This document shows positions 3,243 through 25,546 of a stretch of DNA of 64,000 bases, in pieces (positions within the stretch are counted from its first letter, which is position 1; every line of letters begins with the position of its first letter). The notes under the pieces are model-generated. The model made no database searches. It worked only from the letters and a program-made list of their open reading frames with translations, and was not told where the DNA came from. This stretch comes from Rivularia sp. PCC 7116 (GTDB taxonomy: Bacteria > Cyanobacteriota > Cyanobacteriia > Cyanobacteriales > Nostocaceae). The DNA lies in assembly GCF_000316665.1 (NCBI RefSeq), contig NC_019678.1, positions 7,969,001 to 8,033,000 of the forward strand, written 5' to 3'. Both the position numbers and the translations under genes were made by a program.

Positions 3243-3247
3243 AATTA

Positions 3248-4076: not shown

Positions 4077-4125
4077 ATCTACGTAATTTATATTTAAAAC
4101 CTCAACTTATTAAACCTCACCCTAA

Positions 4126-4148: not shown

Positions 4149-4164
4149 GAAGGAATTTCATTTT

Positions 4165-5865: not shown

Positions 5866-5896
5866 GAGTTTTTGATTTTAAAATTTATTTATATCG

Positions 5897-5939
5897 GTTC
5901 GTAGTTGCGCTTACTCTTCGAGAAAACGCAACTACGAAC
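5897..5939 (-). repeat. Stem-loop inside the minus-strand operon
   Basis: Near-perfect inverted repeat (GTTCGTAGTTGCG at the left, its complement ending at 5939) immediately after the stop of the dehydrogenase gene at 5943 and before the acyl-CoA synthetase start at 5865. It could end part of the transcripts or stabilise the upstream message. There is no T-run on the minus strand. Confidence 0.5.
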
Positions 5940-5942
5940 GAA

Positions 5943-7172: not shown

Positions 7173-7246
7173 TTGATTTTAGATTTTGGATTTTGGATTT
7201 TAGATTGTAAATAAATTTTTCTCCCCCTCTCCCCCATCTTCCCCCT

Positions 7247-8587
7247 CTACCCCATCTGTCCCAAAACTCTATCGCTATAGGAATTTCCAAATCGATTATC
7301 TGGATCTAATTGATAGCGTACTTGCATAAAATCATTCCAGTGGGGATATATTTTTGCTAATTCTTTTGCATCGGGACCAAATCTTTTAGCCCAATGAGGA
7401 CGACCATTAAATTTAGTCATTATTTTTTCATAGTCATTAAAATAATCTTGACAATCAACACGTTTTCCATAAGGCATATAATTAATAATTCCGATATAGC
7501 AGCTATCTCTTCCCTGACAGGGACTTAACCATATATCATCCCCTTTCACAAAACGTACTTCAATCGGAAGATGCGCTTTGTAATCCTTTTTTTGAATCAA
7601 ATCACGAATTGCTTCTAAAGCTTGAACCGTATATTCTATCGGAATAGCCCATTCATTTACCTGCTGTTTAAATAAACAATCAAAATTGAATTGACTTAAA
7701 CTATCACCCCGCGATTGTTTTGGCTTGCTAAACATTTGTTGAGCATACCAACGATTAATTCTAGGAATCAAATTTTGGTCATAAGTTGCTATATATAATA
7801 AAAATTGAAAAGTATAAAATCCAATTAGCTGTTGTTGATACCAATCCCCCAAACGCTGAAAAATATTTTTTCCCTTGACTGTACTCTCCTCCGGTGGTTT
7901 ACGAGTAGCAGTCCATTCCCAAGCCATATCTACATGGGGTAAATACCAAAAACGATAATGGTCGGATTTCAAGGATTCTGGTAAATTCTCAAATACCGCT
8001 GCTAAAGTTTGCGGCTGTTCTTGTACTTCTAAATCAAAACTCTTTGTTACCTTTAGCTTATATTCTGTAATTAATCCCAAACTTCCTAAATGACATTTAA
8101 CAGCATTGAAGAATTGAGAATTTTCAGTTTGGGAAACTTTGATAATTTCTCCCTTACCATTTACCAAAGTTATTTCTTCGATAATGGTCGGCATTGTACC
8201 ATAATTTAAACCAGTTCCATGAGTAGCAGTAGCCATTGCACCGGAAATTGTTTGAGCGGAAATAGAGCCTAAATTTGGTAATGCTAATCCATATTTAGCC
8301 AAACTTTGACTTAACTCATTAATAGTCACTCCCGCTTCAACAACAACGGTTTGATTTTCCGCGTGGATATTTTTAATCGCATTTAAACCATCAAGGCAAA
8401 CTAATTCTTCATTGCTCATCGCCATATCGCTAGGAGAATGCCCGGAACCAAATACTCGAATTTTGCTTCCCCGCTTGATGGCTTGACAAACAATATCCTT
8501 AACTTCTTCATTGGAAACAGGGTGATGTACATAATTAGGCGTGCATTGATATTCCCCCGACCAATTTATAAAACGTTCTTGATTCAT
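7247..8587 (-). CDS. FAD-linked oxidoreductase of the sugar-1,4-lactone oxidase family
   Basis: 446-aa protein with the PCMH-type FAD-binding half (residues ~10-180: VRVFGSGHSPSDMA-like FAD loop, here IRVFGSGHSPSDMA, and ISGAMATATHGTGLNYG) and the ALO C-terminal half (EVRFVKGDDIWLSP, RPHWAKRFG near the end). This domain pair is that of D-arabinono-1,4-lactone and L-gulono-lactone oxidases. The conserved HWAK motif before the C-terminus supports that family. The upstream gene ends 3 bp before its start, showing tight coupling. The exact aldono-lactone or alditol substrate is not predictable. The next gene downstream is a sugar-type dehydrogenase, consistent with sugar or polyol oxidation. Confidence 0.85.
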   Translation of the reverse strand: MNQERFINWSGEYQCTPNYVHHPVSNEEVKDIVCQAIKRGSKIRVFGSGHSPSDMAMSNEELVCLDGLNAIKNIHAENQTVVVEAGVTINELSQSLAKYGLALPNLGSISAQTISGAMATATHGTGLNYGTMPTIIEEITLVNGKGEIIKVSQTENSQFFNAVKCHLGSLGLITEYKLKVTKSFDLEVQEQPQTLAAVFENLPESLKSDHYRFWYLPHVDMAWEWTATRKPPEESTVKGKNIFQRLGDWYQQQLIGFYTFQFLLYIATYDQNLIPRINRWYAQQMFSKPKQSRGDSLSQFNFDCLFKQQVNEWAIPIEYTVQALEAIRDLIQKKDYKAHLPIEVRFVKGDDIWLSPCQGRDSCYIGIINYMPYGKRVDCQDYFNDYEKIMTKFNGRPHWAKRFGPDAKELAKIYPHWNDFMQVRYQLDPDNRFGNSYSDRVLGQMG

Positions 8588-8590
8588 GGT

Positions 8591-9322
8591 TTAAAGAACA
8601 GTAACGATGCCCCGCTGAATATTCGAGTATTTTAATTGTATTTCTGCACGGGATAATTTGGAGGACATTTTCTGTTCGTGGTACTTTTTACGCTTTAAAT
8701 CCTTCCAATCATTAATCCACTTTAACTGTGACAAACTCACTAACTTTGCATGAGCTTGATCGGGAGCAAGCTGTTGTAGTAGCGAAATCGTGGTTACTTC
8801 TTCCATTCCCCCAGGCACATCTTTAAGAAGTCCGCTGGAAACCCCTAGAAATCCCGTGATATTTAATTTTGATAAATTCCACAAAGCCAAAGTATTCCAA
8901 GGTGAAGTCATTCCATCTATCGGTTTTACTCCAGCATCTCCTCCATGACTTAAAATCATCTTTGCTCCGACTACTAATGTATCTGCGGTTAGATGCAAAT
9001 CCAGTATTTTTACGTCTGTCGAATGAACGCAAACTTCTGGACTTTGAAGTAGAAGTTTATTCCCACCCAAAGAAGTTGCTTCATAGACGATTGCATTTAA
9101 AGGATGAGCGAATCCTTTCCAGGGGTTGACCAAAAGTGAATGTACCCGCCTTCCAAAACAAGAAACAGTTTGAGTAATTTCCTCAAAAAGGTGTTCGTCA
9201 GTCGCTATAACCACATAATCTGCGTACTTCAATACTTGATTACACCATTTCTTTAATTTAGAGAAGTTAGGTGTATGGGTACCACAAGCGCTATGAATTC
9301 TTGTTCCAATAATCAGAGACAT
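8591..9322 (-). CDS. Uncharacterised protein, possibly GT-A/nucleotidyl-sugar-like; first gene of operon
   Basis: 243-aa soluble protein beginning MSLIIGTRIHSACGTHTPNF. The N-terminal half alternates strands and helices (YADYVVIATDE, RRVHSLLVNPW) in a way that resembles a GT-A-type nucleotide-sugar fold, but no DXD motif stands out. It is followed within 3 bp by the FAD-linked oxidase gene and heads a four-gene run, so it should act in the same pathway. I do not recognise the family with confidence. Confidence 0.6.
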   Translation of the reverse strand: MSLIIGTRIHSACGTHTPNFSKLKKWCNQVLKYADYVVIATDEHLFEEITQTVSCFGRRVHSLLVNPWKGFAHPLNAIVYEATSLGGNKLLLQSPEVCVHSTDVKILDLHLTADTLVVGAKMILSHGGDAGVKPIDGMTSPWNTLALWNLSKLNITGFLGVSSGLLKDVPGGMEEVTTISLLQQLAPDQAHAKLVSLSQLKWINDWKDLKRKKYHEQKMSSKLSRAEIQLKYSNIQRGIVTVL

Positions 9323-10247
9323 GGATTTGAGTGGTATTAAGTTATGTAAATTAATAATTATTTAACATTATAAATTGTATTGTGAAAAACAAACACTTCT
9401 ATTCACAATCGATACTTTACTGATTGCTGCTTTCAAGCTAGTTAATCAGATTCTTAGTTTTATTCCTAAACGCAAAATACTTACATCAACCCTAGGTCAT
9501 ATAGTGTTGATGAGTTTGTTTTATTCTGCATTTCATCGGTTATAGCGGGACTTTCTTTAATTTAAACAAAATTCTTCCCAGTGTTATTGCTTCAGACACT
9601 TGTCAATTTTTGTTTTATTGTTTATAATTTGATGTTATCAATTTTTATATAAAATCCATTTACACTATTTATAGCGAATCTACTAATACCGCTTCGCGGA
9701 AGTAAGAAGTAAGAAGTTTGATTTTCTAGTCTTTTCAGCCATTTTTGATGGTTGCCTTATTTACGCCGACTTATACTAGTCAAATATGGCAAAAATTATA
9801 GTGGATATTTTTGATAATTTTATTATGCTTTATTGATAGGTTGGTTTAGATTCACGACAAAATTCGATTATTAATCGATAATTCAGATTACATCGTCACC
9901 CAAAATTTTCAATATCAAAAATTATGGTGTCCTGCGGCATGATTAAATTAATGATTTCCATTTTTAGATATTTATGCCGTAACGTAACGACACGGCAATA
10001 TTATGGGAAGAAAATCTACACCCCTATTTGCCTCCCGCACAAAATACAACAATTAAATAATTTGCAATTTAGTCTAAAAAAGTCGCAATCAAAAAAGTTT
10101 ATAATACACAGTTGCAATATCAATCAATATCGATTGATGCAAATAGCTTGATAAAATATTTTTTTCATGATGTCGATTGTAATAATTATATGGTTGTAAA
10201 TAAATCTTGTTTATAATACTTAGTCTAAAGATAGTCTAGTTAATTTT
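9323..10247. other. Long AT-rich gene-free stretch beside the nifD border
   Basis: No convincing gene. It contains the promoter region of the four-gene operon (right after 9322), a ~100-bp repeat at 9681-9780, and a decayed relative of the 2058/3872 repeat from about 9838 (AGGTTGGTTTAGATTCACGAC). Several short frames exist but look random in composition. Confidence 0.6.
9681..9780. repeat. ~100-bp dispersed repeat, copy 1 (partner at 51816-51921)
   Basis: Segment from TACTAATACCGCTTCGCGGA to CCGACTTATACTAGT. The same order of blocks (GCGGAAGTAAGAAGT, TTTTCAGCCATTTTT, ATGGTTGCCTTATTTA, GCCGACTTAT) recurs at 51816-51921. Non-coding; probably a miniature mobile element shared between E4 and E5. 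Confidence 0.7.
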
Positions 10248-10288
10248 TCAATCTCTAAAAGCCTTACCTGAAATACCATAAATAAGCT

Positions 10289-10299
10289 CGGAGTAATCC
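10289..10299 (-). repeat. nifD-element attachment repeat GGATTACTCCG (E4)
   Basis: Exact match to the 11-bp direct repeat known from the XisA-excised nifD element of Anabaena. It encodes part of W-D-Y-S-G in nifD. Only this copy is in the window. Confidence 0.9.
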
Positions 10300-10757
10300 C
10301 AAGAGTGCATTTGACGGAAGGGAAGACCCATTTTTTGGAATACGTACTTCTCTTTAATACCAGCACCAACGATGTCGGGCTTAAGTCCTTTAACAAACTG
10401 CTCGAATTCGTAACCAGTTACGTCATCGTAAACGATGGTTCCGTTTTCAATGTAGTTTGTGGTGCGCTTGTAGTCATCGTTATGAGCGAATTCATAACCA
10501 GTACTTACAAGCTCCATTCCCAAGTCTTTGAATGCGGGTACTACGTGACGAGGACGTAAACCACCAACCATCAATGCAACAGTCTTACCTTTTAGACGAG
10601 GACCGTATTTTTCAAGGATTGCGTCTGTAGAAGCTTGGTATTTAGCAATAACCTTCTCAGCGTTTTCTTGGATTTTCTCGTCGAACTTAGCGGCGATCGC
10701 TCTTAAAGATTCAGCAATCTTGGTAGGTCCGAAGAAGTTGTATTCCATCCAGGGAAT
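10289..10757 (-). CDS. nifD: NifD segment 4 (C-terminal region, up to the FeMo-co histidine)
   Basis: Nitrogenase MoFe-protein alpha chain, about 153 residues from [15 protein letters not shown] to QMHSWDYS. It includes the [12 protein letters not shown] segment and the FeMo-cofactor ligand His in MHSWDYS. Upstream it is cut at the E3 direct repeat ATTCCCTGGAT (10757-10747, minus strand) and downstream at the E4 repeat GGATTACTCCG (10299-10289). In the unexcised state this frame starts at the internal ATG 10748 and ends with an element-encoded tail at 10248. After removal of E3 it joins segment 3 in frame as ...[11 protein letters not shown]. The residues expected after SWDYS (GPYHGYDGFAIF-type) are missing from the window. 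Confidence 0.95.
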
Positions 10758-10968
10758 TTTGTATTTGACTATAGGCTATTAATATTGGTGATTGGTAATA
10801 GGTAATAGATAATTGTTAATTGTAAACAATGCTCGTCAGAAGCTGTTTGCTTTTTAAATAACCGGTTTAATACAAAAATCAGGCAATCATAAAAGTAAAT
10901 TTTCTTTACTAAGATAGCAGTTTTGATACTTTTTAGTTGCCTTCTACTACGAACGCTGCAAGGAAAGT

Positions 10969-12300
10969 ATGAAGCAAGTTGAGACAACATATACTGATTT
11001 AAAAGAAAAATTTGACAAAGAAGTTATTAAAGTTAAAGCCAGATTGAAAGAAGCCAATATCAAAGTTGGAATAGTAGTTAAGAACGCTTCAATTCAGTTA
11101 CAGGCAAGTCTTCCTCTCAAACCTGGAGAAATTAATAAAAAGGGCACTGGTACCAAGCAATATTCCATCTCTTTGGGTATTCCGGCGAATCTGGATGGTT
11201 TGAAAACAGCTGAAGAAGAAGCACATGAATTAAGCAGGCTTACCGCCAGAAAATGCTTTAAATGGAATGACAAGTATTTAGGAAAAAGACGATTAGCTGC
11301 TAAAGGGCAAGTTAGAACTATTGCACAGATACTTCCCGATTTTGAAAAGCAGTATTTTCAAACTAGAAAACGCACAATGAAAAGCGAACATACTTTTCAC
11401 TGTCATCAAGATTACTTGAAAAGAAATATTGGGCTAGATACTTTTGTTTGTAAAGATGGAATCTTAGCGTGTCTGGATAAATTAGAGCCTAAAAGCAGTA
11501 CTCTGTATAATACAGTCAAGACGCTTAAAGTATTCTGCAAAATTTTTGATTTAAATATAGATTTATCTGCCTATTCGGGTAAACCGATTGTTAGAGACAG
11601 AAATATACCGAGCGATGAAGAAATTACCGCAGCTTATACAAAATTTGCAGATTACGCTGCTAAACGCAAAAAAACAATCAAAAAAGCCTATTTAAATAGT
11701 TGGAAGCTTTGGCAATGGTGCTACGGTATGCTGGCAACTTATGGATTAAGACCTAGAGAATTATTTGTAAATCCAAATATAGAGCATTGGTTGAGTACGG
11801 ATAATATTAACAGTACTTGGAAAGTAGATGGTGAGACTAAAACAGGAAGTAGAGAGGTTTTACCCTTTTATCCAGACTGGGTGAGACTATTCGATTTAAA
11901 AAATCCCCAATATCTGCAAATGCTCAAAGGGGCTGTAGAAGACAAAAAAACATTCCAAGATATCAACACCGTTAGAATTAATTGTTCATCCTGGTTTCGC
12001 AGGGTTAATGTAGGTTTCGATCCTTACGACTTACGTCATGCTTGGGCTATTCGCGCTCACATCAACGGAATTCCCATAAAAGCCGCTGCTGATAATCTAG
12101 GACATTCTGTAGAAGTTCACACAGAAGTATATCAAAAATGGTTTTCCTTAGAAAATCGTAGAAAGGTAATGAATTTTGCAGTCGAAAATAAAAGTCTAGT
12201 TGAAGAATTACAAAATCAAAACCAACAGTTAAAACTACAGGTAGAGAAATTAAAGCAAGAGAATCAGCAATTACAGATGAAATACAACATTACTGCTTAA
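10969..12300 (+). CDS. XisA/XisC-like tyrosine site-specific recombinase of E3
   Basis: 443-aa integrase-type enzyme, most likely the excisase of E3 because it starts close to the left repeat. Catalytic landmarks are the first Arg in TYGLRPRELF, the second box PYDLRHAWAIR, NLGHSVEVHTEVYQKW with the nucleophile Tyr, and a Lys/Thr-containing strand KVDGETKTGSREVLPF. In the second box Tyr replaces the usual His of HxLR, a feature shared with the nifD and hupL element recombinases. The C-terminus (from ~400) is a Gln/Glu/Leu coiled coil. It is a clear paralogue of the E1 recombinase at 23772-25205: both share LPLKPGE/D, SLGIPANL and GLKTAEEEA stretches. Confidence 0.93.
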   Translation: MKQVETTYTDLKEKFDKEVIKVKARLKEANIKVGIVVKNASIQLQASLPLKPGEINKKGTGTKQYSISLGIPANLDGLKTAEEEAHELSRLTARKCFKWNDKYLGKRRLAAKGQVRTIAQILPDFEKQYFQTRKRTMKSEHTFHCHQDYLKRNIGLDTFVCKDGILACLDKLEPKSSTLYNTVKTLKVFCKIFDLNIDLSAYSGKPIVRDRNIPSDEEITAAYTKFADYAAKRKKTIKKAYLNSWKLWQWCYGMLATYGLRPRELFVNPNIEHWLSTDNINSTWKVDGETKTGSREVLPFYPDWVRLFDLKNPQYLQMLKGAVEDKKTFQDINTVRINCSSWFRRVNVGFDPYDLRHAWAIRAHINGIPIKAAADNLGHSVEVHTEVYQKWFSLENRRKVMNFAVENKSLVEELQNQNQQLKLQVEKLKQENQQLQMKYNITA

Positions 12301-12420
12301 TAATCTATAGTACAGGTTGCACTAATTTCTAAATAATCTAGCCTATTGTCAGAAGTATCCCCGTTTTAAAGAAAATCCCCAATTATCAATTCTCAATACC
12401 CAATTACCAAGTCTTTTTTC

Positions 12421-12524
12421 GGTTTAAAGCCCCCGGATTCATCCGTGGACTATACTCTGTTAAAGCCCCTAAATTTCATTTATGGGGAATTAATTACGAA
12501 TTACGAATTACGAATTACGAATTA
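12421..12524. repeat. ~104-bp dispersed repeat with heptamer tail, copy 1
   Basis: Starts GGTTTAAAGCCCCCGGATT, contains ATCCGTGGA and AAGCCCCTAAATTT, and ends in four TTACGAA heptamers (12491-12524). A second copy with the same layout is at 27075-27184. Its arms (CCCCCGGAT/ATCCGTGG and CCCCTAAAT/ATTTATGGGG) suggest an internally folded element. Confidence 0.75.
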
Positions 12525-12539
12525 TACTTACCTTTTCCC

Positions 12540-13529
12540 CTATAAGTTATGTTGCAGTTGCCTGGAATCTTTTGCATAAAATCTTCTATATACTGCCTTA
12601 AATCTCTGATATAGTAACGGCGACAATAGAAATAACGTAGAAATTCGGATAATGGTTTTTAACATAATTCGCCATTGCCAAACTGATGCATCATAGCGAA
12701 TCGTATTATAAAAAAATCGCATCGCAGCGATAGAATTTTGACTTGAATTATTGGATTCTAAAGACTTATGAATCAGGTAATAGTAAAGGATTCCAGAAGC
12801 TCTCTTTTTTAAATACTGAACTGATGCAGGGGCACGATTAAAAGCTTGTTCAATCAATTGCGAACAAACTTTTTCCATTTTCAAAACATTAGTAGAGCCT
12901 GAGTGAGACAAAGTACGGTACAAAATCTGAGGAGATGGTACTGTCACAAACTCATAACGAGCCGCTAAACGCAACCACATATCCCAATCTTCTGCTGGTG
13001 TTAATGACTGATTAAAACCGCCAACCTGGATTAAGGCTTCTCTAATAATTAAAGGATTTGAACCATTTTCTAAAACATTTTCCACCAACATCTGTTTGTA
13101 GGCATCTCCATTAATAGTAATATGATTGCCATTATGTAAAAATTCACCTTCAGCATTAATATAATCCACCCAACTGTAAGCAACCGCTGCTTGAGGAGTT
13201 GATTGCAAAGCTTTCAGTTGTGATTCTAGTTTATCTAAAGTCCAGAGGTCATCAGCATCTAAAAAGGAAATAAACTGACCACCAGCTTTTTTAATGCCAC
13301 GGTTGCGACTAATCGCAACACCCGCATTTTTATATGAAAATACTTTTAAACGCGAGTCTTGAATATTAGCAATTACGTTCAAAGTTGAATCCTGCGAACC
13401 ATCATCAATTACTATTAATTCAAGATTGACAAAAGTTTGGTTTAACACAGATTCAATTGTTTCTTTAATCGTTGTTTCACCGTTGTAAACCGGAACGATA
13501 ACAGATATTAGCGGCATAGTAGCTGTCAT
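12540..13529 (-). CDS. Family 2 glycosyltransferase (cargo of E3)
   Basis: GT-A fold glycosyltransferase that adds a sugar from a nucleotide-sugar donor to an unknown acceptor. The N-terminus is LISVIVPVYNGETTIKETI, followed by VIDDGSQDST, the metal-binding SFLDADDLW and the ED-x-D-type PAEDWDMWLRLA catalytic region. I prefer the ATG at 13529, since GGGGAG lies 9 bp before it; the frame is open further to 13610. The C-terminus has hydrophobic stretches that may associate with the membrane. It is read convergently with the recombinase and would be lost when E3 excises. Cell-surface polysaccharide work is an inference from the family. Confidence 0.85.
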   Translation of the reverse strand: MTATMPLISVIVPVYNGETTIKETIESVLNQTFVNLELIVIDDGSQDSTLNVIANIQDSRLKVFSYKNAGVAISRNRGIKKAGGQFISFLDADDLWTLDKLESQLKALQSTPQAAVAYSWVDYINAEGEFLHNGNHITINGDAYKQMLVENVLENGSNPLIIREALIQVGGFNQSLTPAEDWDMWLRLAARYEFVTVPSPQILYRTLSHSGSTNVLKMEKVCSQLIEQAFNRAPASVQYLKKRASGILYYYLIHKSLESNNSSQNSIAAMRFFYNTIRYDASVWQWRIMLKTIIRISTLFLLSPLLYQRFKAVYRRFYAKDSRQLQHNL

Positions 13530-14093
13530 GATGCTCATCTCCCCACAATAAACTTTGAATATGTCGATACATGGATTTGACAATTGAGCTTGAAACGTGA
13601 CTCTTACCAAAATTAACTAAAAATTTTCTAGTTTGTAAACATCCGATTTCAAATATCAAATATATTTAGATTCAAAATAGATTCATTCTATGCTTTACTT
13701 ATAAAACTATATTCTTCTCCATCGATACATCAATTGTTTTGGCTAAATCTTGCTTCACTTAAAATTTATTGACAAAAATTTATGATTATTATACCAAAGC
13801 CAGATAAAAAATCAAATAATGCCGTATAAGTCATTTTAGCTACATGAAATTTGTTCTTAACCTAAACATAAATTACAAAATTTTTCTACAAGTCCTTTTA
13901 AATAGTACTGTTAGCAAATATTTCTCCAAACAAATCATTAAATAGTGCATAATTAATCCAAAAAATGAGTCAATTTACTATTCATTGCAGCATTTTGATA
14001 AAGTAAAACGTTTTTATTTAATGAAAAAGTAAAACACTTTTAAATGAAAAAACTTAAATCCTTAACTGCTAGATTTTTCAAGGATTATCTATT
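13530..14093. other. Gene-free right part of E3
   Basis: AT-rich stretch between the glycosyltransferase start and the right E3 repeat. It holds A/T runs and several AAAGTAAAAC-like words (13998-14035). I see no gene and no clear promoter boxes. Confidence 0.5.
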
Positions 14094-14222
14094 ATCCAGG
14101 GAATACCATAAGCTTCTTCCATATGACGAGAGATGTAGTTCATAGAACGGTAGCAATGAATCAAGTTCATTTTTACCTTGGGAGTCAACATCATCTCGTT
14201 TAAGGTACCGTCACCAGACCAC
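14094..14222 (-). CDS. nifD: NifD segment 3 (39 residues, carries the FeMo-co cysteine)
   Basis: Short piece of the MoFe-protein alpha chain reading [14 protein letters not shown]... [23 protein letters not shown]. It contains the Cys in [11 protein letters not shown] that ligates the FeMo-cofactor. It is bounded by the E2 repeat (14211-14222) on its 5' side and the E3 repeat (14094-14104) on its 3' side. It has no start codon of its own and only makes sense joined to segments 2 and 4. Without excision the frame runs into E3 and stops after PWIIDNP. Confidence 0.95.
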
Positions 14223-14265
14223 GAAGACGTGGTACTATAAACGGTTGTGGCTGGTGTGACACTAT

Positions 14266-15612
14266 ATGATTTACGGTTATGCTCGCGTCTCTACAGTCGA
14301 GCAATCTTTAGAATACGATGCATTGAAACAGCAAGTAAAGCGCTTAGAGGATGCTGGGGCTGATGTGGTGTTAGTTGATATAGAATCGGGACGGTCAAAT
14401 AAAAGGAAGGAGTTTAATAAGCTTTTAAAGATGGTGGAGCGGGGAAAGATTCGAGAAATTATTGTTACCCGCATTGATAGGCTTGGGCGTAGCGATATTG
14501 ATGTTATTCGGACGATTCAGCTTTTCAATGACTCAGGAATAATTTTAAGGATACTGGATGCGCCAATTGATGTTAGTTCCTCGTTTGGGCGGTTTTCTGC
14601 TTCCCAGATGGCAGCACTCGCAGACTTTGAAAGTAGGTTGTTATCGGAACGTACAAGGCACGGTATGGCTTATTTTAGGTCGCAGGGTAAAGTTCAATCG
14701 GCTTGTTTTGGATATCGATTAAATGAAGAACACAAAATAATACCGCATGAAAAGAACTTCCCCATTGCTAGGAAAGTAATTGAACTATTGCTTGAAGATT
14801 ACAGCTTTGGAGCAGTATCCAAATATTTATTCGAGGAACACGGGATTAATTATTCGGTATCGGGTATTAGGCATTGGCTTGAAAATCCTACATTGCTCGG
14901 TCACACCCGATATTTCACCGATATGGAGCAGAAAAGGAACCCGAAAAACCCCAGACCACCACAAATAATTAAAAATACCCACGAGGCGATCGCCACTGAA
15001 TTTGAAATTGCCCGGATTAAACGCAACGCTAAGAGCAGACCGAGGTTTACGGGGAAGAAAGAGAAGGAATACCCGTTAAAAGGTTTATTGAAATGCGCTG
15101 ACTGCAAAGGGGGGATGTTTCGGATTATAAGCAGGTACAAGTCAGGTGAAACGCATTGGATACGGTGTAATAAACACGCTCGTAACCCGCATTTGTGCCA
15201 CAACAAGAAGAATTCCCGATTGAATGTCCTTACAAAGCAGGTAATTAAAGCTATTACCGACGAAGCAGAAAAAATTATCGAACAATCGGAACTTGCAGAT
15301 AGTCCCGTTGAATCATCAGAATTGATTGATTTAAAGCAGCAATTGGAGGGGTTGAAAGCACTTAATTCTTCCAATCCTGCAATTATTGCGGCTATGCAAG
15401 ATATTGAGAACCAAATAGAAGCTGAGGTAATGCGATCGCAGTATGCAGATAAAATCGATGCTGACAGGCTTAAACTGGCTTGGTCGTATTCTCAGCCAGC
15501 TTTTTGGGAATCGCTTGACAATGATGATTTACGGCAGGCTTTTAAGTCGTTTGTAGAAGCGGTATTTGTAGATTCTACTGGCAATGTATCAAGCATCTCT
15601 TTTGATGAATGA
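14266..15612 (+). CDS. Large serine recombinase, XisF-like (excisase of E2)
   Basis: 448-aa serine recombinase. The catalytic domain starts [20 protein letters not shown] (nucleophile Ser in YARVST), with [11 protein letters not shown] and [13 protein letters not shown] as the further resolvase landmarks. A recombinase domain ([39 protein letters not shown]) follows. Next is a zinc-ribbon-like region with CADC, then C and C in [14 protein letters not shown], and a C-terminal coiled coil. It resembles XisF of the Anabaena fdxN element but is shorter. Its position 44 bp inside the left E2 repeat, reading inward, links it to E2 excision. Confidence 0.93.
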
Positions 15613-15980
15613 TGGTTATCGTAGAACTCAATAGCTAGTTTTCGCAAGCGCTTTAAGAAGTCTTTATTTGCGTACACGAGTAACCTTTTGTAGCGAGCAA
15701 CCAAATCATTATAGTCCAGCGTTGACAAAGCTTCTGTCTTTGCTGGACATTCTGATTCAGTCCTTAAGTGAGGAATGAAAAGATAGGAATAAGTTGTCTA
15801 ATTCACACATTAAAATTTTCGCTATCCAGATCCGGATAACGGTATATTGCGTTACTCAGATGTGAGTAACGCGAATTTAATACTTTTATAGTTAATGTAT
15901 TTTAATCCCAGATCAAGTGGAAGCATGGACTCGATTCCAATAAGGAATATAGCGGTATTCGATTAGCTCCCCAAAACTCC
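15613..15980. other. Intergenic region between convergent genes in E2
   Basis: A minus-strand frame (to 15728) overlaps the recombinase 3' end and encodes a Lys/Arg-rich stretch (YNDLVARYKRLLVYANKDFL). It could be a decayed gene end but is not convincing alone. The rest holds a small palindrome (TACTCAGATGTGAGTA, 15853-15868) and nothing else recognisable. Confidence 0.4.
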
Positions 15981-16015
15981 AAAAAAGAAGCCCCAGAATA
16001 TTACCAGGGCTTCTT
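15981..16015 (-). terminator. Intrinsic terminator of the 1,611-aa exoprotein gene
   Basis: On the minus strand: stem AAGAAGCCC, loop, GGGCTTCTT, then a run of six T. It lies 53 bp after the stop codon at 16069. Confidence 0.85.
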
Positions 16016-16068
16016 AATTACGGATTAGTATGTTGGGCTACTAGACAATATCTAAATTTGTTCAACCT

Positions 16069-19000
16069 TTACACAGTGGGAAAATCAACTTTAACAATCA
16101 TATCGTTATAGTCAAAATCACCACCACCAGCTAGGTCTTCGTAACCGAAAGTATTGTCACCAAGTAAGCGAATGTGGTCAACTCCATCGCTGTTTGCTCC
16201 CAAGAATGAGAAGTAAACTTCTGCGTTGTTGTTGATTGCTTCATCTACAGTTCCATCTACAACCATGAAGGAAGCTAAAATATTTCCACCGTCGAAGGTT
16301 CCATCAAAGCTAGATGTTTGTTGCTCATCGGTTTGAAGCAAATCTAAACTTGTGATGCGGTTTGTCAACGCAGCTTCTTCATATCCAGCATCACCAGGAT
16401 TAAAGTCTATTACACCATCACCATTTGTATCAATTCCACCTTTACTGTCAAGAACTTGGTAAAAACCAATCAAGTTATCGAAAGCGGCTTCTCGGTGTAC
16501 CTCTACGCTAACTGATACTTGACCTGATTCATTACTCAAATCTATAAGTTCATTTTGTAGGTTTCCTTGTAATTCAGTAGCGGAAGCAGGAGCATCTTGA
16601 GTAAGTTGTACAGTTAAATCTAAATTAGTGAAATCACTATTACCTGCTTCATCTGACCAGTTTAAATTAAAACTTTCTGCAACCAAATCAGATACTTGTA
16701 GGTTGGAGGAATCGGAGAAGAATATGGGTAAGTTTGTGGTTCCGTTTGCTGCTAACTCCGCAAGTGCTGTATCAGTTGTACCGTTAGATACCAAATAGAA
16801 GCCTAAATGTGCGTCAGAATCAACTTCAATTACCCGCTCAATATCTCCTAAGTCAAATCCACTAGGACGGTCAGAAATTGCTGAGAAGATTATTTGTGAC
16901 CTTTGTAGCGCTGCTTTGAGATAACCGTCGGAACCAGGGGCATTACCATCAACATTACCGTTTTCATTATTTACAACAAATACACCAACCTCGTTTACAT
17001 TTTCGGTGTTATTGTTAGATAGAGTAAATTTGACGTTGGTGGAGTCTCCTCCATTCAAAGTAAATATTCCGTTATTACTTTCAGTCTCAAACTGAGCAGG
17101 AGCAACATCATTAAGGTTGACGGTAATATTAGCAGTATCGGTTAAATCACCTGCGTCTGTTGCTGTAACCTCTAGATTGAAAGTAGGTGTAACTTCAAAG
17201 TCAAGGTCATCTTTGTCATTAACGGTAATTGTTCCGGTAGAGGGGTCAATTGCAAAAGCTAGGTTACTATCATTATCTGGGTCAAGGTTTCCGGAACTTA
17301 TTGCAAAAGTTAAAGCTTCTTTTTCGGGGTCTGTTGCGGTAATAATACCTACTTCTGTTCCAGAAGTGCTGTTTTCATCTACAGTGAAAGTCGCATCATC
17401 AACAGTAGGTGTTTCGTTAACGTTTTCTACTGTAATAGTCAAGTCTTGAGCTACATTTTCAGCACCGTCGGAAACAGCAATTTGGACTTGGTAGTTGTTA
17501 TCAGCGTCAGCGTCAGCAGCAGTTTCAAAGTCGGGAGCGTTGATAAAGCTTAGTTCCCCACTGTCGTTGATAGAAAATAATCCTTGGTCAGCACCACCAG
17601 TAATACTGAAACTGAGGTCATTTCCATCTGCATCGTTAGCAGTAATTGTTCCTACTGTTGTGGTATTTTCTGCAACTTGGAATGTTGGATTACTGGTAAT
17701 GGTTGGTGGAGTATTAGCGTCATCGTTAAGTATTGTAAATATCAAATCCTCACTTGGAACTAATGCAGTGCCAGAAACACTTGTTAGTTTAACTCCAAAT
17801 GTCTCATCACCTTCAATTTCTCGATCTGGATTGATAGCAATATCAATTGTTTTTGTATCTTCACCAGCAGCAAAAGTAACTTCGCTAGAAGAAAAACCAT
17901 CGACAAAATCAGATGCTTGAGCAGGATTATCACCTTTCTCAATAATCTCAACTTTAATTGTGTCAGTTCCATTTAAACCGCCAAAGCGATCGAGTGTGAG
18001 TGTGAGAGTCGATGGAGCATCGGAATCTCCTTCTACAACTGTTGGATCTCCACCTGTAATTGGTATACTGATTACACTATCATCATCAATGATGTTAACC
18101 CCAGCAGTTGCTGTTGTTGCTCCATTCGCAAATGTTCCACCAGAAACCACACTCAGATCGAGAGATACAGATTCGTCCCCTTCAACATCAGTATCGCCTA
18201 ATATTTCCAGCGTAATATCACCTGAAGTTTGTCCCGCAGCAATTGTCAGTTGACCTGTATTTTCGACAAAATCAGTTCCTGCATCTGCATTATCTGAACG
18301 AGTAGCAAAGTCAATTACTACATCTTCAGTTGTGGTACTAGAAAGATTGACAGTAAAGGTAGCAGTAGTTGAACCAGTATTACCTTCTGCGAGGGAGATA
18401 CCCTGGTTTGCTAAAGATAGTGTTGGTGTAACGGTTAGTGTATCAACAGCTAGTCGAACATCACTGAATTGAATAAACTCTACATTTAGCAAAGTATTAT
18501 CAGTACCGATATTGACTATATTCCCGTTTTTGGAAACACCGCCAGCATCAGTTTGAGTCTTATTGATTTCAACAGTATCGATACCTACACCACCATCTAC
18601 CAGGTTGACACCACCCAAGAGAATAAACCGGTCATTTCCACCATTACCAAAAATGGTGTTTTGACCGTCACTAACTTGGATAGTATTATCAAGATCGTTT
18701 GCGTTGATTTCTCGAATTACTGGCTGACTTGCGACAGTATTTTCAAGATTGCTTTGATTATTCTCTTGGCTGATTGACTGGCTTTGGGTAGACTCAACGA
18801 AGTCAGTTTGATTCACACTGAAAGTAATAATTTGTTTTGTTCCATTATCCGTTTGCTGTGTGACCTGTTCCTGACCCGTGGTAATTTTATAATCTAGAGA
18901 AGCAGTAGGAGTACCATCATTAAACACCACATCAAAGGTGACATCATTTTCTGCTGTGCGGGTGACTTCGAGTCCGTCAATAGTACCTTCAAACTTCAGA

Positions 19001-20904
19001 CCAAGTGTATCTTCAATTAATTGATCTGGAGTGATTGTATCGACTACGGTACCAGCTAATTTCACGTCAATACGTTCAATGATATTTTTATCTATGGTTG
19101 CTGCATTAAATTCTGTGATTAAATCAGCAGGATCTGAAAGCACAACAGCATCATCTGAATCTACAATGTTTAATTCACTTAAACTTGGATTACCAATACC
19201 AAAAGCACGAACCTCAGCTAATTGTTGTAGCTGTGCAGCACTTGACGAGAAGTCAGGACCATTATTAAATCCATCAGAGAGAAAATAAGCAATATTAGTT
19301 GCATTATTATTCCGCGATGTAAAGAAATTTTGTGCTTCAACTAAAGCTGAATTAAAGTTTGTAAGACCCCCAGCAACTAAGCCATTAATAGTAGAAATCG
19401 TGGTGGGTGCATCTAGTGGAGCGAATAAAGATGCAGAACTATCAAAATCTACGACAGCAAATTCACTATTGGCAGCAATACCATCGTCAATTAAGGATTG
19501 AGTTAATTCTTGATAGGCAGCTTTAGCTTCTACAATTCTTGTTCCAGACATACTGCCGGAACTGTCAAAAATATAGGCAAAATTGTATAAGAGTCCCTGT
19601 TCAGAACCAAGAGTAAGGGTATAGTTCACATCGCCATCAAACATCCAAGCTGGAGATTCAACAGTTATTGTGCCAATCTTGTTACCCTCGTCGTCGAGAA
19701 TATCTTCTTCGGGAGTAATAAGAGCTCCATCCTTTAGTTTTGTATTGTCGTCAGGATCTACTTGCAGTGGAACAAAGAAAAGATTTCCATCATCATCGGT
19801 ACCATTCTCATCCGCATCAACAAATTCAAAGACACCGAATTCAATATCTTTAGTAGTATCTGTAGCGTCACTTTGACTTCCACGAGCATGTATGAATTGA
19901 AATGCAGGTAATAAAGGATCGGTAATAGTAAAGTCGTAATTGGTGAAGATTTCCGAGAAAAGGGCTTGATCCACACCGTCTCCACCTTCTAAACGGTCAT
20001 TTGCACCACCACCAAAGAGTCTGTCATTACCATCGTTTCCTATGATGCGCTCTCTACGGTAAGAACCGAAAATATCATCGTTAGCAGTACCACCAATGAT
20101 TGCGTTTTCTGGAAGGTCATTAGCATTGGTAGTTCCAGAATCAGTTTCAATCTGGTCGATGATTTCATCATAAATATCTGTTGTAATCAGCACACCACTG
20201 TTGTTCGTACTACTTCCATAAGCATGAATACCCAAAACACGAGGATTAGGGTCACCGTCTAGAGTATGCCATACACCACTTCCGCTCTGACCACCAGCAG
20301 TATCAACATCTTGAGAGTAGAAAAAACGTCCATTTGATGTAAAAACAATGTTACCTGGTGATTCTGCTGCACCTGGAGAACGTACTAAATCGCGTCCAAA
20401 CACTCCAGTGTTACCTGGTATATTACCCGAGACATTGTCTCCAGGATATCCTGCTGTATCAATGGTTAAACCTGTAGTAGTTGCAGGATCGACAAACGCA
20501 ATCAGACCAATTACATCGCTTGCAGCAATTGGTGCGTCACTAGTGGTAAACAGAGCAATATCATCTCCAGGATTCCCTGTTACGTTGTAATTATCTACAA
20601 AATTTACATTGGTAACATTTGCTGGTGGATCGCTAGAGAAACCAATGATGCGAGTTCTCAAAGCATCTTCGTTCGCACTGGTTGTTGTTCGCAAACTAGT
20701 AGCAATTGTATTATTGCTAGCATTGTAAGGATTGTGACCTGCGGTAAGTACGTGATTGGGAGCAATTGTAATTCCAGATCCAACGAAAGAGCCAGCAGAT
20801 GTTTGAATATCAACAGTCGTAACCGTGGAAATTGGAAAGGTGCCAAACGAAGTAATAACCTGTCTACTATCAGGACCAATTACGCTCATTTCAATATTCT
20901 CCAA
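16069..20904 (-). CDS. Giant multidomain exoprotein: trypsin-like protease, RTX, VWA, Calx-beta, cadherin-like, DUF4114
   Basis: 1,611-aa protein, acidic and Asn/Thr/Asp-rich, typical of secreted cyanobacterial surface proteins. Residues ~20-240 form a trypsin/V8-like protease with VLTAGHN (His57), GDDIAL (Asp115) and GGQSGSG (Ser207). RTX-like GNDGNDRLFGGGANDRLEGGDG follows. A VWA domain begins with the MIDAS motif FDSSGSMSG, then come a second RTX-like patch, two Calx-beta domains (each with AEGNTG- or VEGD-type starts), two cadherin-like repeats, and a C-terminal DUF4114 ending DLAGGGDFDYNDMIVKVDF. No classical signal peptide is present; type I secretion is likely from the RTX features. 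It is cargo of E2 and would be lost on excision. Confidence 0.88.
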   Translation of the reverse strand: MENIEMSVIGPDSRQVITSFGTFPISTVTTVDIQTSAGSFVGSGITIAPNHVLTAGHNPYNASNNTIATSLRTTTSANEDALRTRIIGFSSDPPANVTNVNFVDNYNVTGNPGDDIALFTTSDAPIAASDVIGLIAFVDPATTTGLTIDTAGYPGDNVSGNIPGNTGVFGRDLVRSPGAAESPGNIVFTSNGRFFYSQDVDTAGGQSGSGVWHTLDGDPNPRVLGIHAYGSSTNNSGVLITTDIYDEIIDQIETDSGTTNANDLPENAIIGGTANDDIFGSYRRERIIGNDGNDRLFGGGANDRLEGGDGVDQALFSEIFTNYDFTITDPLLPAFQFIHARGSQSDATDTTKDIEFGVFEFVDADENGTDDDGNLFFVPLQVDPDDNTKLKDGALITPEEDILDDEGNKIGTITVESPAWMFDGDVNYTLTLGSEQGLLYNFAYIFDSSGSMSGTRIVEAKAAYQELTQSLIDDGIAANSEFAVVDFDSSASLFAPLDAPTTISTINGLVAGGLTNFNSALVEAQNFFTSRNNNATNIAYFLSDGFNNGPDFSSSAAQLQQLAEVRAFGIGNPSLSELNIVDSDDAVVLSDPADLITEFNAATIDKNIIERIDVKLAGTVVDTITPDQLIEDTLGLKFEGTIDGLEVTRTAENDVTFDVVFNDGTPTASLDYKITTGQEQVTQQTDNGTKQIITFSVNQTDFVESTQSQSISQENNQSNLENTVASQPVIREINANDLDNTIQVSDGQNTIFGNGGNDRFILLGGVNLVDGGVGIDTVEINKTQTDAGGVSKNGNIVNIGTDNTLLNVEFIQFSDVRLAVDTLTVTPTLSLANQGISLAEGNTGSTTATFTVNLSSTTTEDVVIDFATRSDNADAGTDFVENTGQLTIAAGQTSGDITLEILGDTDVEGDESVSLDLSVVSGGTFANGATTATAGVNIIDDDSVISIPITGGDPTVVEGDSDAPSTLTLTLDRFGGLNGTDTIKVEIIEKGDNPAQASDFVDGFSSSEVTFAAGEDTKTIDIAINPDREIEGDETFGVKLTSVSGTALVPSEDLIFTILNDDANTPPTITSNPTFQVAENTTTVGTITANDADGNDLSFSITGGADQGLFSINDSGELSFINAPDFETAADADADNNYQVQIAVSDGAENVAQDLTITVENVNETPTVDDATFTVDENSTSGTEVGIITATDPEKEALTFAISSGNLDPDNDSNLAFAIDPSTGTITVNDKDDLDFEVTPTFNLEVTATDAGDLTDTANITVNLNDVAPAQFETESNNGIFTLNGGDSTNVKFTLSNNNTENVNEVGVFVVNNENGNVDGNAPGSDGYLKAALQRSQIIFSAISDRPSGFDLGDIERVIEVDSDAHLGFYLVSNGTTDTALAELAANGTTNLPIFFSDSSNLQVSDLVAESFNLNWSDEAGNSDFTNLDLTVQLTQDAPASATELQGNLQNELIDLSNESGQVSVSVEVHREAAFDNLIGFYQVLDSKGGIDTNGDGVIDFNPGDAGYEEAALTNRITSLDLLQTDEQQTSSFDGTFDGGNILASFMVVDGTVDEAINNNAEVYFSFLGANSDGVDHIRLLGDNTFGYEDLAGGGDFDYNDMIVKVDFPTV

Positions 20905-21059
20905 AAAGTTAATAAAATGAAAATTAGCGGACTAGTACTCTGGCAAGCCACAATTGCCGGGTAAGGGCAGGCAGGGGGAGCAGGGGAAGCGGAGGGAGCA
21001 GGGGGAGAAAAAACTTTTTATTTCCACGCTAAACCCAGCAAAGTTCGCTTGGCGAACCA
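20905..21059. repeat. Polypurine (GGGGGAGCAGG) low-complexity tract
   Basis: Between the two E2 exoprotein genes, 20961-21007 is a run of AGGGGGAGCAGGGG-like units. The same family appears inside patG (61108-61131, 62262-62283). Confidence 0.6.
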
Positions 21060-22181
21060 CTAGTCTTTTGATGTAATATGCTGCTCTATGCAGAGCTTTA
21101 CGCCAGAAGAGGTCTTTTGAACAGTTGTCAAAAGGCTGTTTTGAAGTAGAGCGCGATCTATATCTCTACGCTCTTTCACAAGACGAGGTGTAGCGTTATC
21201 GTCAAGGTTAAATAGTTCTAAAAGGGCTTGTTGCTCACCATCATTTGAACGGGGACGCATTCTTGCCAAAATATTGTGGTCTAAAGAAAGTTCACCAACT
21301 CCATCAATAACTGTTGTTGAACCATCTTTAATTCCTGTAATTAAGGTTTTTGGTGGTATAGCGTAAGTAAATCCTCCCACTGCACCAACCACAGCAAATT
21401 GGTCAGAAATTGCTACAGTACTTCCCATATGAGCATTGGGAACAGCAAGTCTTTGGGGTTGATTTTCTGGTAATTTCAAGTCAAATAACCAAGCTGCTCC
21501 TGTATCATCAAACGGTGAACCAACAAGAAGGAGATTATTTTTAAGATCGATATCAACACCAAAATTCTGCTCTGCACTATTTGTAGGTGACAAAATCTGC
21601 TTTACATCACCTTCAGTTAACAAATTGACTTTGCCAATCCATCTACCAGGTTTTTCTTCTTGCTTGATACTAAAAGCAATTATTCCTGCATCTGAGGAAA
21701 CCGAGAAACCAGAAATTTCACCACCGCTAAGTGCATCAATCCGTTTCACTTCTGCTTTCTTATCAAGCAAAACTTGATATACTCCGCCAGAGAAAGATAC
21801 TCCAAGTTGATTGGTATATTGAAAATTTTCTTGATTATTTGGTTTATATTTCTCAGTGTATGCACCAATAACTAAAGTCGATTTATCTAAAGAAATATCA
21901 TAACCAAACCCAGAGCCGACAACTTCAGCAGCAGAACCTTTTGGAGGCAAAATTTCTCTTGTTCTTACCCAATTATGACTACCATTGCGGCTATATATAA
22001 CAACGCGATTTGCTTCTGGGTCACCAACTGCTAAATAATTGTTATTAACAGAAACGGCATAACCAAATGATTTGCTGTCACTAGAATCTGATACCAAGCA
22101 GGTTTGTGCAGAAGTTGACGTACTTGTCATCGCAAGCAATACCCCAAATATAATTAGCAGAAATGAGGAAGTTATTTTCAT
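21060..22181 (-). CDS. Secreted FG-GAP-repeat-type protein
   Basis: 373 aa with an N-terminal signal peptide (MKITSSFLLIIFGVLLAM..., cleavage near STSAQT). The remainder repeats a pattern of FGYAVSVNNNYLAVGDPEAN and FGYDISLDKSTLVIGAY, where a Phe-Gly is followed by a strand and '.lavGd/Gay'. This is the blade pattern of FG-GAP/integrin-alpha-like beta-propellers. It lies upstream of the giant exoprotein, 155 bp away on the same strand, so the two may be co-expressed and act outside the cell. Ligand unknown. Confidence 0.75.
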   Translation of the reverse strand: MKITSSFLLIIFGVLLAMTSTSTSAQTCLVSDSSDSKSFGYAVSVNNNYLAVGDPEANRVVIYSRNGSHNWVRTREILPPKGSAAEVVGSGFGYDISLDKSTLVIGAYTEKYKPNNQENFQYTNQLGVSFSGGVYQVLLDKKAEVKRIDALSGGEISGFSVSSDAGIIAFSIKQEEKPGRWIGKVNLLTEGDVKQILSPTNSAEQNFGVDIDLKNNLLLVGSPFDDTGAAWLFDLKLPENQPQRLAVPNAHMGSTVAISDQFAVVGAVGGFTYAIPPKTLITGIKDGSTTVIDGVGELSLDHNILARMRPRSNDGEQQALLELFNLDDNATPRLVKERRDIDRALLQNSLLTTVQKTSSGVKLCIEQHITSKD

Positions 22182-23023
22182 CTGATTTAACGCAGATAAA
22201 TATCTTTTACGTAATAAATTAAATGTAAACTTAAAGTATTAAGGTATTATTCACTAGCAAGTGGCATAATAAACAAGGTATCGCGGATAGTTGTTTAGCC
22301 ATTTGCGGAATCTATATATGAATTTTTATCGTCCAAAAGCAGAAATCTCTCTAAAGACGTAGCATTGTCATATCTCTCATCAACGAGAAAATTTTTTTCA
22401 ACAATCCTATTTTTATTCAGATGCAACACTATTTCATGAGGTTAATTTTGATGATTTATAATCAAAATTAACTCTCAAGAAATCAAAGATTAATGAGTTT
22501 TAACTCTTTAATACTAAATAGATATTAATAAAATAACAAGAAATTAAAATTACATTTAAATATTACTTTTGAGTAGTTTATTTTTTTAATTACTAAATAG
22601 AACATTTTATCTATCAGTATAAATTAGGTAAAATCACTCTAAATTATTATTCTAAGTAATTTATAAAAATAAAAAATTAAATATATTACTCAGAACATAC
22701 TGGTATGGTTAAACCTTAAAAGCATGACGAATTTTATACTTATTTACTGTTCAGATTATTTGTGGCGATTACCTTATTAGAATTCCTCAAAAGAGAAATT
22801 GCTTTTCATCAACAATAGGCTAATATGTGCTACACTCATGTTTGAAATATTCAACAAATAAAACAATAGCCGCTCGTCAGTAATCCTCAAGCAAGGAATC
22901 AACTACAAGCGGATATTTTTTGTACGGGTTTCACAATTACTCACGATTAGCAAAGAACGCGATCGCATCTGAAGAAGTTAGCGTCGCAATCGGCATACGG
23001 CGCTCGTTAATAGTTACTCGCCC
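22182..23023. other. Gene-free AT-rich right part of E2
   Basis: About 840 bp with no recognisable gene. It holds the upstream region of the FG-GAP gene and a HIP1 octamer (~22959). It ends at the right E2 repeat. Confidence 0.55.
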
Positions 23024-23585
23024 TCACCAGACCACTGAGCGACTACGCGCAAGCCGATTTCTTCTAAGAGGATACGGCTAGACCATGCATCACCACCGAT
23101 GTTGTAGTCACCAATGATTGCTACATCATAAGGACCTTGTTCGTAATTTAGAGTATTTTCCTTAGCAGCTTTATCAGCAGCAGGGAATACCCAGTCACGA
23201 ATAGCATCGTTAGCGATGTGGTGTCCTAAAGACTGAGACACACCACGGAAACCTTCACAACGAGCGGGGATAACTGGCTTCCCAATATCTTTGGAAGCTT
23301 TCTTAGCAACCGCTTCGATGTCATCACCGATCAAACCAATGGGACACTCAGATTGAACTGATACACCTCTGTTGAGGGGGAAGAGTTCTTCGATTTCGTT
23401 AATCATTTTGGCGAGCTTCTTGTCTCCACCAAAAACGATGTCTCTTTCTTGGAAGTCAGAAGTAAAGTGCATTGTACCGAAGGTGTCAACACCAGTGGTA
23501 CCAATATAATAGTTACGACGACCAGACCAAGACCAGTAACCACAACCAACGGGACCGTGGCTGATGTGGATCATGTCCTTAATCG
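23024..23585 (-). CDS. nifD: NifD segment 2 (two P-cluster cysteines)
   Basis: About 184 residues of the MoFe-protein alpha chain, from [20 protein letters not shown] to LRVVAQWSG. It carries the P-cluster cysteines in GPVGCGYW and [12 protein letters not shown], and the His-containing [17 protein letters not shown] segment near the FeMo-cofactor. The frame enters from E1 without its own start (the ATG at 23574 is an internal Met). It leaves into E2 with a short GEGE tail and stop. It joins segment 1 as [10 protein letters not shown] and segment 3 as [10 protein letters not shown] once E1 and E2 are removed. Confidence 0.96.
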
Positions 23586-25320
23586 TGATATTTCCCCACA
23601 GCTAAAAAATCCGATTGATAGTATTTTCCCAATTCTTAATGATAAGATAACCTGAATTTACCCTAAATAAACCTCTTGAAAAGAGCAGCACACAAATCAA
23701 ATTACTAATTTAACTTCAGTTTGAGAAATCCTGAATCTACCCTAAAATGCGAGTGAAGAATTATAGATCTATTATGGTAGCGGCATTTCTGGTTGTGCGA
23801 TCGCCTTGGGATAAGATGATATCTGCTGTAGTTTATCCAGTTCATTTTTAAGGCGTTGATTTTCTGCGATTAATCTGATGTTTTCAGCTTCTAATTGTTC
23901 TCGTGATTTTTTGTTAATTGCAGATTTCATAACTTGCTTGCGATTTTCCAACGAGAACCACCGGTGATAAACTTTGGTATGCATTTCTACAGAATGTCCT
24001 AAATTATCGGCTGATGCTTTGATTGGTAAACCTTGAATATGCGCTCTAATCGCGCAAGCATGTCTCAAATCGTAAGGTTCAAACGGTAAATCTAGAATTC
24101 GTCTAAACCACCGAGCATTAGTTTGAACTAAGTGCGATAATTCCTGAAAACTAGTTATTTTTTGTATTTTCTCTTTCAGCAAACAGATAGCTTCTGGATT
24201 TTTTAATTCAAATAATTCTACCCATTCTGGTACAAAAGGTAAAACTTCTCTGTAACCTGTTTTATTGGATTTATGAACTTTCCAAATATTATCAGTATTT
24301 TCATCATTTAAAAACCAATCTAAATCTGGCTGATTAAATACCTCACGCGGTCTTAAACCGTAGGTAGCAATTAATCCGAATATTAATCTATGTAGCTTCC
24401 AGGAATTTCTATAGTCCTTTCTTACTTTTGAATTTTGACCTTTTTCTTGATATCTTTCAAAAGCTTCTATAATTTCGATATCGGAAGGTATATATCTATC
24501 ATTCGGAACAACAGGTAATTTTAAGTCTTTGAAATTTACTTCTATCCCATGAATTTTGGAAAATACTCTCGCAATTCTAATTGCTTGGTCGCGTGAGGTT
24601 GGAGAGGTAATACTTTGAATAATTTTAATAATATTTTCGCTTGTAACTGGTAAATCTGATTCAAAATATTGTTTATATCGTTTATATAAATGCCAAAAAC
24701 TATGTTCGCTTTTAATAGTTCTTTTTCTAGTACTAAAATATTCGCTTTCTAAAGTTTCTAATACTTGCTCAAAAGTTTTGAATACCTGCGGATTCGCGTT
24801 TTGACCTAAATACTTATCATTCCATTCAAAACATTTTCTTGCAATCAGTTTACCTAATTCATAAGCTTCTTCTTCAGCAGTTTTTAGACCATTTAAATTT
24901 GCTGGAATACCTAAAGAAATAAAATATTGCTTTTTACTTCTCCCCGATTTATTTGTATCGCCAGGTTTCAAAGGAAGAGTAGCCCTTAACTGTAGAGTAT
25001 TTCCTACTCTTTTGATACTTACTTTACTTTTACTTGCTTTAAGCCTTGCATTTATATCCTTCAACTTCTCTTCAATCTTTTTATCCATATACTCTTGCGT
25101 TGCCTTAACTTGATTCTGCGTACCCATGTAGCTTCCGTCGGTACTTGCTGGAACTTCAAATTCATCAAATAAATCATCTATATCCTCTTGATGCACCTGT
25201 TTCATCCTAAATATGCCCTAAAAAATAACTGCTTATAACGAACATTTAAAAGCAATACAAAATGTTCATTACAAGCAGTTTAAAGCATTTTATTTTAAAG
25301 ATGAAACATATTTTTAATCG
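23579..25320. mobile_element. E1: 1.7-kb minimal nifD interruption element
   Basis: Flanked by the direct repeat TTAATCG at 23579-23585 and 25314-25320 (plus strand), with partial similarity extending left (CATGTCC versus CATATTT). Deletion of 1,735 bp restores [17 protein letters not shown]. It contains a single gene, a tyrosine recombinase whose start is about 110 bp from the right repeat. Confidence 0.88.
23772..25205 (-). CDS. XisA/XisC-like tyrosine recombinase of E1
   Basis: 477-aa tyrosine recombinase and the only gene of E1. Catalytic landmarks are TYGLRPREVF (Arg), HKSNKTGYREVLPF (Lys strand), PYDLRHACAIR (second Arg, with Tyr in place of the usual His) and NLGHSVEMHTKVYHRW (nucleophile Tyr). 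A long C-terminal coiled coil (EAENIRLIAENQRLKNEL) and a mixed-charge N-terminal arm flank the core. It is closely related to the E3 enzyme at 10969 but must act on a different repeat. Both read inward from the nearer border. Confidence 0.93.
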   Translation of the reverse strand: MKQVHQEDIDDLFDEFEVPASTDGSYMGTQNQVKATQEYMDKKIEEKLKDINARLKASKSKVSIKRVGNTLQLRATLPLKPGDTNKSGRSKKQYFISLGIPANLNGLKTAEEEAYELGKLIARKCFEWNDKYLGQNANPQVFKTFEQVLETLESEYFSTRKRTIKSEHSFWHLYKRYKQYFESDLPVTSENIIKIIQSITSPTSRDQAIRIARVFSKIHGIEVNFKDLKLPVVPNDRYIPSDIEIIEAFERYQEKGQNSKVRKDYRNSWKLHRLIFGLIATYGLRPREVFNQPDLDWFLNDENTDNIWKVHKSNKTGYREVLPFVPEWVELFELKNPEAICLLKEKIQKITSFQELSHLVQTNARWFRRILDLPFEPYDLRHACAIRAHIQGLPIKASADNLGHSVEMHTKVYHRWFSLENRKQVMKSAINKKSREQLEAENIRLIAENQRLKNELDKLQQISSYPKAIAQPEMPLP

Positions 25321-25546
25321 GACCCCAGACCACACCTTTAGAACCTGCATATGCACAACCACGAGCGGTCATAACACCAGGAAGAGACTTGACGTTAGAT
25401 TTTACGCCGCAATCACTCTTACCTTCTTCGTGAACGTTGAGGTGCTTAGTACGTCTTTTCTTAGCTTTCTCAGGATAAGCGTCTAAAACTTCGTTAACTA
25501 GCTGCTTTCTTTCTTCGAGAATGTTCTTCTTATCTGCGGGTGACAT
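25314..25546 (-). CDS. nifD: NifD segment 1 (N-terminus)
   Basis: N-terminal 78 residues of the nitrogenase MoFe-protein alpha chain, starting [20 protein letters not shown] at 25546. It contains the first P-cluster Cys in [18 protein letters not shown]. In the unexcised state it continues into E1 with NMFHL and stops at 25295. It lies 143 bp after the nifH stop on the same strand, the usual nifH-nifD arrangement. Confidence 0.96.

Follow-up and report, generated by a model that had tools for sequence, protein, structure and literature searches.

The nifD locus of Rivularia sp. PCC 7116, analysed here in a window of 64,000 nucleotides (contig NC_019678.1, positions 7,969,001 to 8,033,000), raises the question of how coding pieces lying kilobases apart could come to specify a single nitrogenase subunit. 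The minus strand carries nifD as four in-window pieces, parted by elements of 1,735, 8,813, and 3,347 bp (Table 1), and the final part of the gene is found to the left of the window, beyond a further element of 24,191 bp. Comparison of the segment ends revealed exact direct repeats at all four elements (7, 12, 11, and 11 bp, respectively), with insertion points at nt 227, 777, 895, and 1353 of the joined gene. Joined, the four in-window segments come to 1,363 nt, i.e., 454 codons plus one base, with GGATTACTCCG as the last bases, and reproduce the seamless frame computed in the original prediction; with the outside piece included, the full join encodes a NifD of 504 amino acid residues without internal stops. 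Repeats and join together bear out the arrangement that had been predicted, namely four in-window segments with three complete elements and a fourth at the 3' end. A split coding sequence whose parts fit together in frame, a feature of heterocyst interruption elements, was found at the nifD elements, and the best-supported reading of the locus is that of four site-specific excision elements within one nifD.

Table 1. Coordinates of nifD segments, interruption elements, and associated genes (window positions unless marked as contig positions).
Feature	Position	Strand	Basis or remark
nifD segment 1	25314..25546	-	start codon to direct repeat CGATTAA
nifD segment 2	23024..23585	-	PF00148 search and segment-end comparison
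nifD segment 3	14094..14222	-	PF00148 search and segment-end comparison
nifD segment 4	10289..10757	-	up to repeat GGATTACTCCG (10289-10299)
Element at nifD nt 227, 1,735 bp	23586..25320		repeat pair CGATTAA 25320/23585; same pair in 5 same-genus genomes
XisA-like recombinase of 227 element, 477 aa	23772..25205	-	similarity to 895 protein
Element at nifD nt 777, 8,813 bp	14223..23035		repeat pair GTGGTCTGGTGA 23035/14222
XisF-type serine recombinase of 777 element, 448 aa	14266..15612	+	NF041201, 446.7 bits (cut-off 375); Pfam Resolvase, Recombinase, Zn_ribbon_recom
777 element cargo, both genes	16069..22181	-	Pfam
777 element cargo: VWA/cadherin/Calx-beta protein, 1,611 aa	16069-20904	-	Pfam
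777 element cargo: FG-GAP protein, 373 aa	21060-22181	-	Pfam
Element at nifD nt 895, 3,347 bp	10758..14104		repeat pair ATTCCCTGGAT 14104/10757
XisA-like recombinase of 895 element, 443 aa	10969..12300	+	similarity to 227 and 1353 proteins
895 element cargo: glycosyltransferase family 2	12540..13610	-	Pfam
Element at nifD nt 1353, in-window part of 24,191 bp	1..10299		repeat GGATTACTCCG at 10299 and contig 7955108
XisA-like recombinase of 1353 element	contig 7955283-7956542		left of window
EF-G paralogue of 1353 element, 695 aa	1..320	-	in-window start; whole gene contig 7967233-7969320
nifH last piece	25690-25806		rest of nifH beyond 61,951-bp element

The joined NifD, compared with solved structures, gave as top match subunit D of the MoFe nitrogenase (9hbc_A, E 9e-259, query residues 5-488). 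Residues C64 (segment 1), C90 and C156 (segment 2), C282 (segment 3), and H449 (segment 4) are all present and lie in stretches common to two solved NifD chains in the alignments. We take these residues to be the P-cluster and FeMo-co ligand positions, whose retention in the joined protein had been claimed from the sequence. A whole-genome search with PF00148 returned nine matches, corresponding to three nifD pieces, the body of nifK, the end of nifK, and four other long genes, which we assume to be nifE, nifN, ChlN, and ChlB, mainly from their position; the gene read as ChlN adjoins a NifH/ChlL-like gene. A query with NifD picked up segment 1 as well as the terminal piece of the gene. An intact second nifD, named in the original prediction as the finding that would count against it, does not occur among these nine matches of the whole-genome search.

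The repeats differ in how much they tell. Of pairs of fixed positions drawn at random from the window, 276 of 2,000,000 matched over 7 bases and 28 of 2,000,000 over 11 bases, while random 60-nt pairs contained some common 7-mer, 11-mer, or 12-mer in 4,334, 62, and 41 of 20,000 cases, respectively. Since random 60-nt pairs often have a common 7-mer, the 7-bp repeat CGATTAA is weak on its own; it gains its weight from marking the precise point at which homology breaks off and from its recurrence at this nifD position in five genomes of the same genus (G185, G187, G188, G189, and G190).

A recombinase gene was identified within every element, as XisF by a curated model in the 777 element and as XisA-like in the other three by mutual similarity and a conserved motif. 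The 227 and 1353 proteins are 45 and 52% identical to the 895 recombinase, respectively, and all three have in common the stretch DLRHA.AIRAHI / LGHS..HT..Y..W, presumably the tyrosine-recombinase catalytic motif. None of them passed a curated cut-off in Pfam or NCBIfam: the 227 protein had no match in either collection up to E 0.001, the 895 protein had a weak NCBIfam tyrosine recombinase match (20.7 bits versus a cut-off of 220), and the 1353 protein had a Pfam Phage_integrase match below threshold. The 227 recombinase is 83-92% identical to its counterpart in the 227 elements of five same-genus genomes, and the 895 recombinase has a counterpart of 91% identity in Calothrix parasitica NIES-267 (two relatives were found in a contig search that may omit the window's own genome). 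The far repeat of the 1353 element, at contig position 7955108, corresponds to window coordinate -13892, 13.9 kb left of the window, and most of this element lies outside it. The EF-G paralogue among its cargo matches TIGR00484 with 976.3 bits. An Fe/Mn superoxide dismutase is also encoded in the 1353 element (8080-8811 of contig piece 7952001-7972000). By eye, window positions ~12420-12530, in the 895 element, and ~27080-27190, in the nifH element, look alike, with a Phe/Pro-rich-looking spacer and a repeated 'attacgaattacgaattacg'.

Comparison with genomes of the same genus revealed that G186 is without an element at 227, 777, or 895 and thus represents the empty sites. The joined nifD aligned with that of G186 from nt 13 to 1326 without gaps, at 88.6% identity and across three junctions; the nifD of G185 is uninterrupted at 777. 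The dN/dS value against G186 was 0.067 over 438 codons, the 60 codons after the 1353 site being outside the test, and 0.067, 0.062, 0.116, and 0.066 for segments 1 to 4, respectively, segment 3 comprising only 39 codons. Such low values in the four tested segments are consistent with the earlier claim that selection still acts on nifD. The same cuts were found in same-genus genomes at 227 (five genomes), 777 (G187), near 895 (G185 and G187), and 1353.

Taken together, exact repeats, an in-frame join, and one recombinase gene per element argue that the four inserts belong to the developmental interruption elements of heterocyst formers and that nifD would be restored by their own recombinases, as do the gapless match to an uninterrupted same-genus nifD, the dN/dS of 0.067, and the lack of another nifD in the genome search; we put the probability of this reading at about 95%. 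It also agrees with the 2016 survey in the 227, 895, and 1353 positions, the orientation of the 895 recombinase, and the EF-G paralogue, as these are given there (PMC4874684). Against it stand the XisA-like proteins falling below curated cut-offs, a 777 element in which XisH and XisI were not found, and an insertion point at 777 that does not appear in the survey passages on which we draw. In vegetative cells nifD would thus lie in five pieces. At heterocyst formation each recombinase (XisA-like at nt 227, 895, and 1353; XisF at nt 777) would recombine its own direct repeats, releasing the element, leaving one repeat copy, and restoring a nifD of 504 codons. The literature is the basis for placing excision in heterocysts and for pairing each recombinase with the element that carries it.

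The missing XisH and XisI would also fit elements that are stuck, one or more sites never being rejoined and nifD being broken in this strain. We hold this to be very improbable, since the joined gene shows a dN/dS of 0.067 and no stop, the repeats are exact and the recombinase frames open, and the four-element nifD of G187 likewise joins to an open frame. Fainter still is the chance that the inserts leave the RNA or protein, as introns or inteins, and not the DNA: exact in-frame removal would look identical at the coding level, yet both ends of the inserts carry direct repeats, each insert contains a site-specific recombinase gene, and inserts of up to 24 kb contain unrelated genes. Equally far-fetched appears an assembly error, in which the order of the pieces would not be real. 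Seven other cases are marked as odd assemblies in the survey (PMC4874684), whereas nifD is here read from one chromosome contig of 8,698,463 bases (the assembly sequences measuring 8,698,463, 26,836, and 3,474 bases) and the same cuts recur in same-genus genomes. Developmental excision elements therefore remain the preferred explanation of the four inserts.

The frequency of such genes was assessed from NifD match rows of 53 of the 217 family genomes, picked mostly for a short best NifD match, a criterion that does not pick genomes with both an intact and a fragmented copy, and very short pieces may escape. At least two of the 53 genomes, that of the window (G000) and G187, have four cuts in nifD among the matches listed; the count leaves aside G027, G081, and G142, as well as G191, a genome 84% complete whose nifD pieces sit at contig edges. 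The G187 elements measure 1,748, 16,397, 1,814, and 8,905 bp, and their removal gives an open NifD of 499 amino acid residues, of which 461 are identical to those of the window's NifD; the repeat copies at 777 and 1353 differ from each other in G187, the join took the right-hand ones, and the residues there depend on that choice. The G187 recombinases at 227, 777, and 1353 are 83, 91, and 81% identical to those of the window, respectively, and from these identities look orthologous. Near 895, the G187 recombinase is 39% identical to the window's 895 protein and 53% to its 227 protein, and the repeat, TATGGT, lies six bases upstream of the window's 895 repeat. These data would fit two elements having inserted independently at almost identical codons, in agreement with the assignment of 895 recombinases to distant groups in the survey (PMC4874684).

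Further positions are used elsewhere. The nifD of G190 is interrupted near nt 467 by an element of 1,936 bp, which is bounded by the repeat GTCCCATCGGT and carries an XisA-like gene of its own, at a site not named in the main-text passages on which we draw in Hilton, Meeks and Zehr (2016; PMC4874684). Two genomes of another genus (G028 and G029) have a nifD break near codons 234-241, and one piece of G027 begins there.

What appears to be the same four-fold interruption of nifD was published in 2016: in their survey of 38 genomes of heterocyst formers, Hilton, Meeks and Zehr describe a Rivularia nifD with four elements, the highest number that they report for any one gene, and list positions 227, 895, and 1353 (PMC4874684). 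Most likely, the nifD of the window is this published case of Rivularia sp. PCC 7116. Both have four elements, including those at 227, 895, and 1353, the recombinase of the 895 element at the element end and opposite to nifD, and an EF-G paralogue in the 1353 element; at these matched positions and within the published description as cited, no differences were found (PMC4874684). No second paper on this nifD came up in searches of the open-licence literature. The value of the present analysis therefore lies in confirmation of a case in print since 2016 and in a small extension to related genomes; the additions are a second four-element genome of the same genus, one non-orthologous recombinase in it, and the nt 467 site in another.

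Among known systems, the XisA nifD element of Nostoc/Anabaena PCC 7120 resembles the 1353 element in having an XisA-like recombinase and a similar insertion site. The PCC 7120 element is inserted near nt 1355 of nifD and has GGATTACTCCG as its repeat. Unlike PCC 7120, the window's nifD has three further elements, and the 1353 cargo includes the EF-G paralogue. The 777 recombinase lies above the cut-off of the XisF model and is in this respect like that of the fdxN element of Nostoc PCC 7120; unlike the latter, the 777 element targets nifD, and xisH and xisI were looked for within it and not found. XisH and XisI are described as required by the fdxN element of Nostoc 7120 (PMC4874684). In the genome of the window, matches to both occur at distant loci near 5.34 and 6.59 Mb, and to XisI only near 6.47 Mb.

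The neighbouring genes are interrupted as well. nifH is cut near its end by an element of 61,951 bp, with the repeat ACACC at contig position 8056757 and window position 25806; its join encodes a NifH of 297 amino acid residues, and the element contains an XisF gene. A join of nifH at the 8-base repeat AATCTAGC was rejected, as it gives a NifH ending out of frame, whereas ACACC gives it in frame. nifK is cut near nt 1286 by an element of 84,730 bp (contig 7953562 to 7868832) containing an XisF gene at 7868913-7870415, and the joined NifK has 511 amino acid residues. The nifH and nifK joins were taken from among many possible joins listed. The nifK junction (common TGT) was chosen as restoring the expected reading, GTTCT nine bases upstream giving the same length; with its short repeat it is uncertain and the least secure of the joins. 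The inner ends of the nifK element resemble, by eye, an inverted repeat, GCTGACTATCA / TGATAGTCAGC.

For nifHDK, the total would be six excisions and 184,767 bp removed (sum of element sizes). Four separate site-specific deletions within nifD appear to be required before this essential subunit can be produced; they would involve two unrelated recombinase classes and would make this an extreme programmed DNA rearrangement in bacteria. The four-element gene is thus well suited to studying the persistence of such elements and a possible order in their excision. As a tentative suggestion, rather doubtful at present, multiple nifD interruption might be a standing, renewed state in the genus, and six nifHDK excisions could lock N2 fixation to a terminal cell type.

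In the wider surroundings of nif, from 7.846 to 8.066 Mb of the contig, XisA-like genes number six, and XisF genes scoring above the cut-off number four. Beyond those of the elements described above, four of these Xis-type genes, one XisF and three XisA-like, flank the nif genes at contig positions 7846122-7849857 and 8062330-8066096, and because of them further genes nearby may be interrupted; elements of nifB and hupS are named in Rivularia (PMC4874684).
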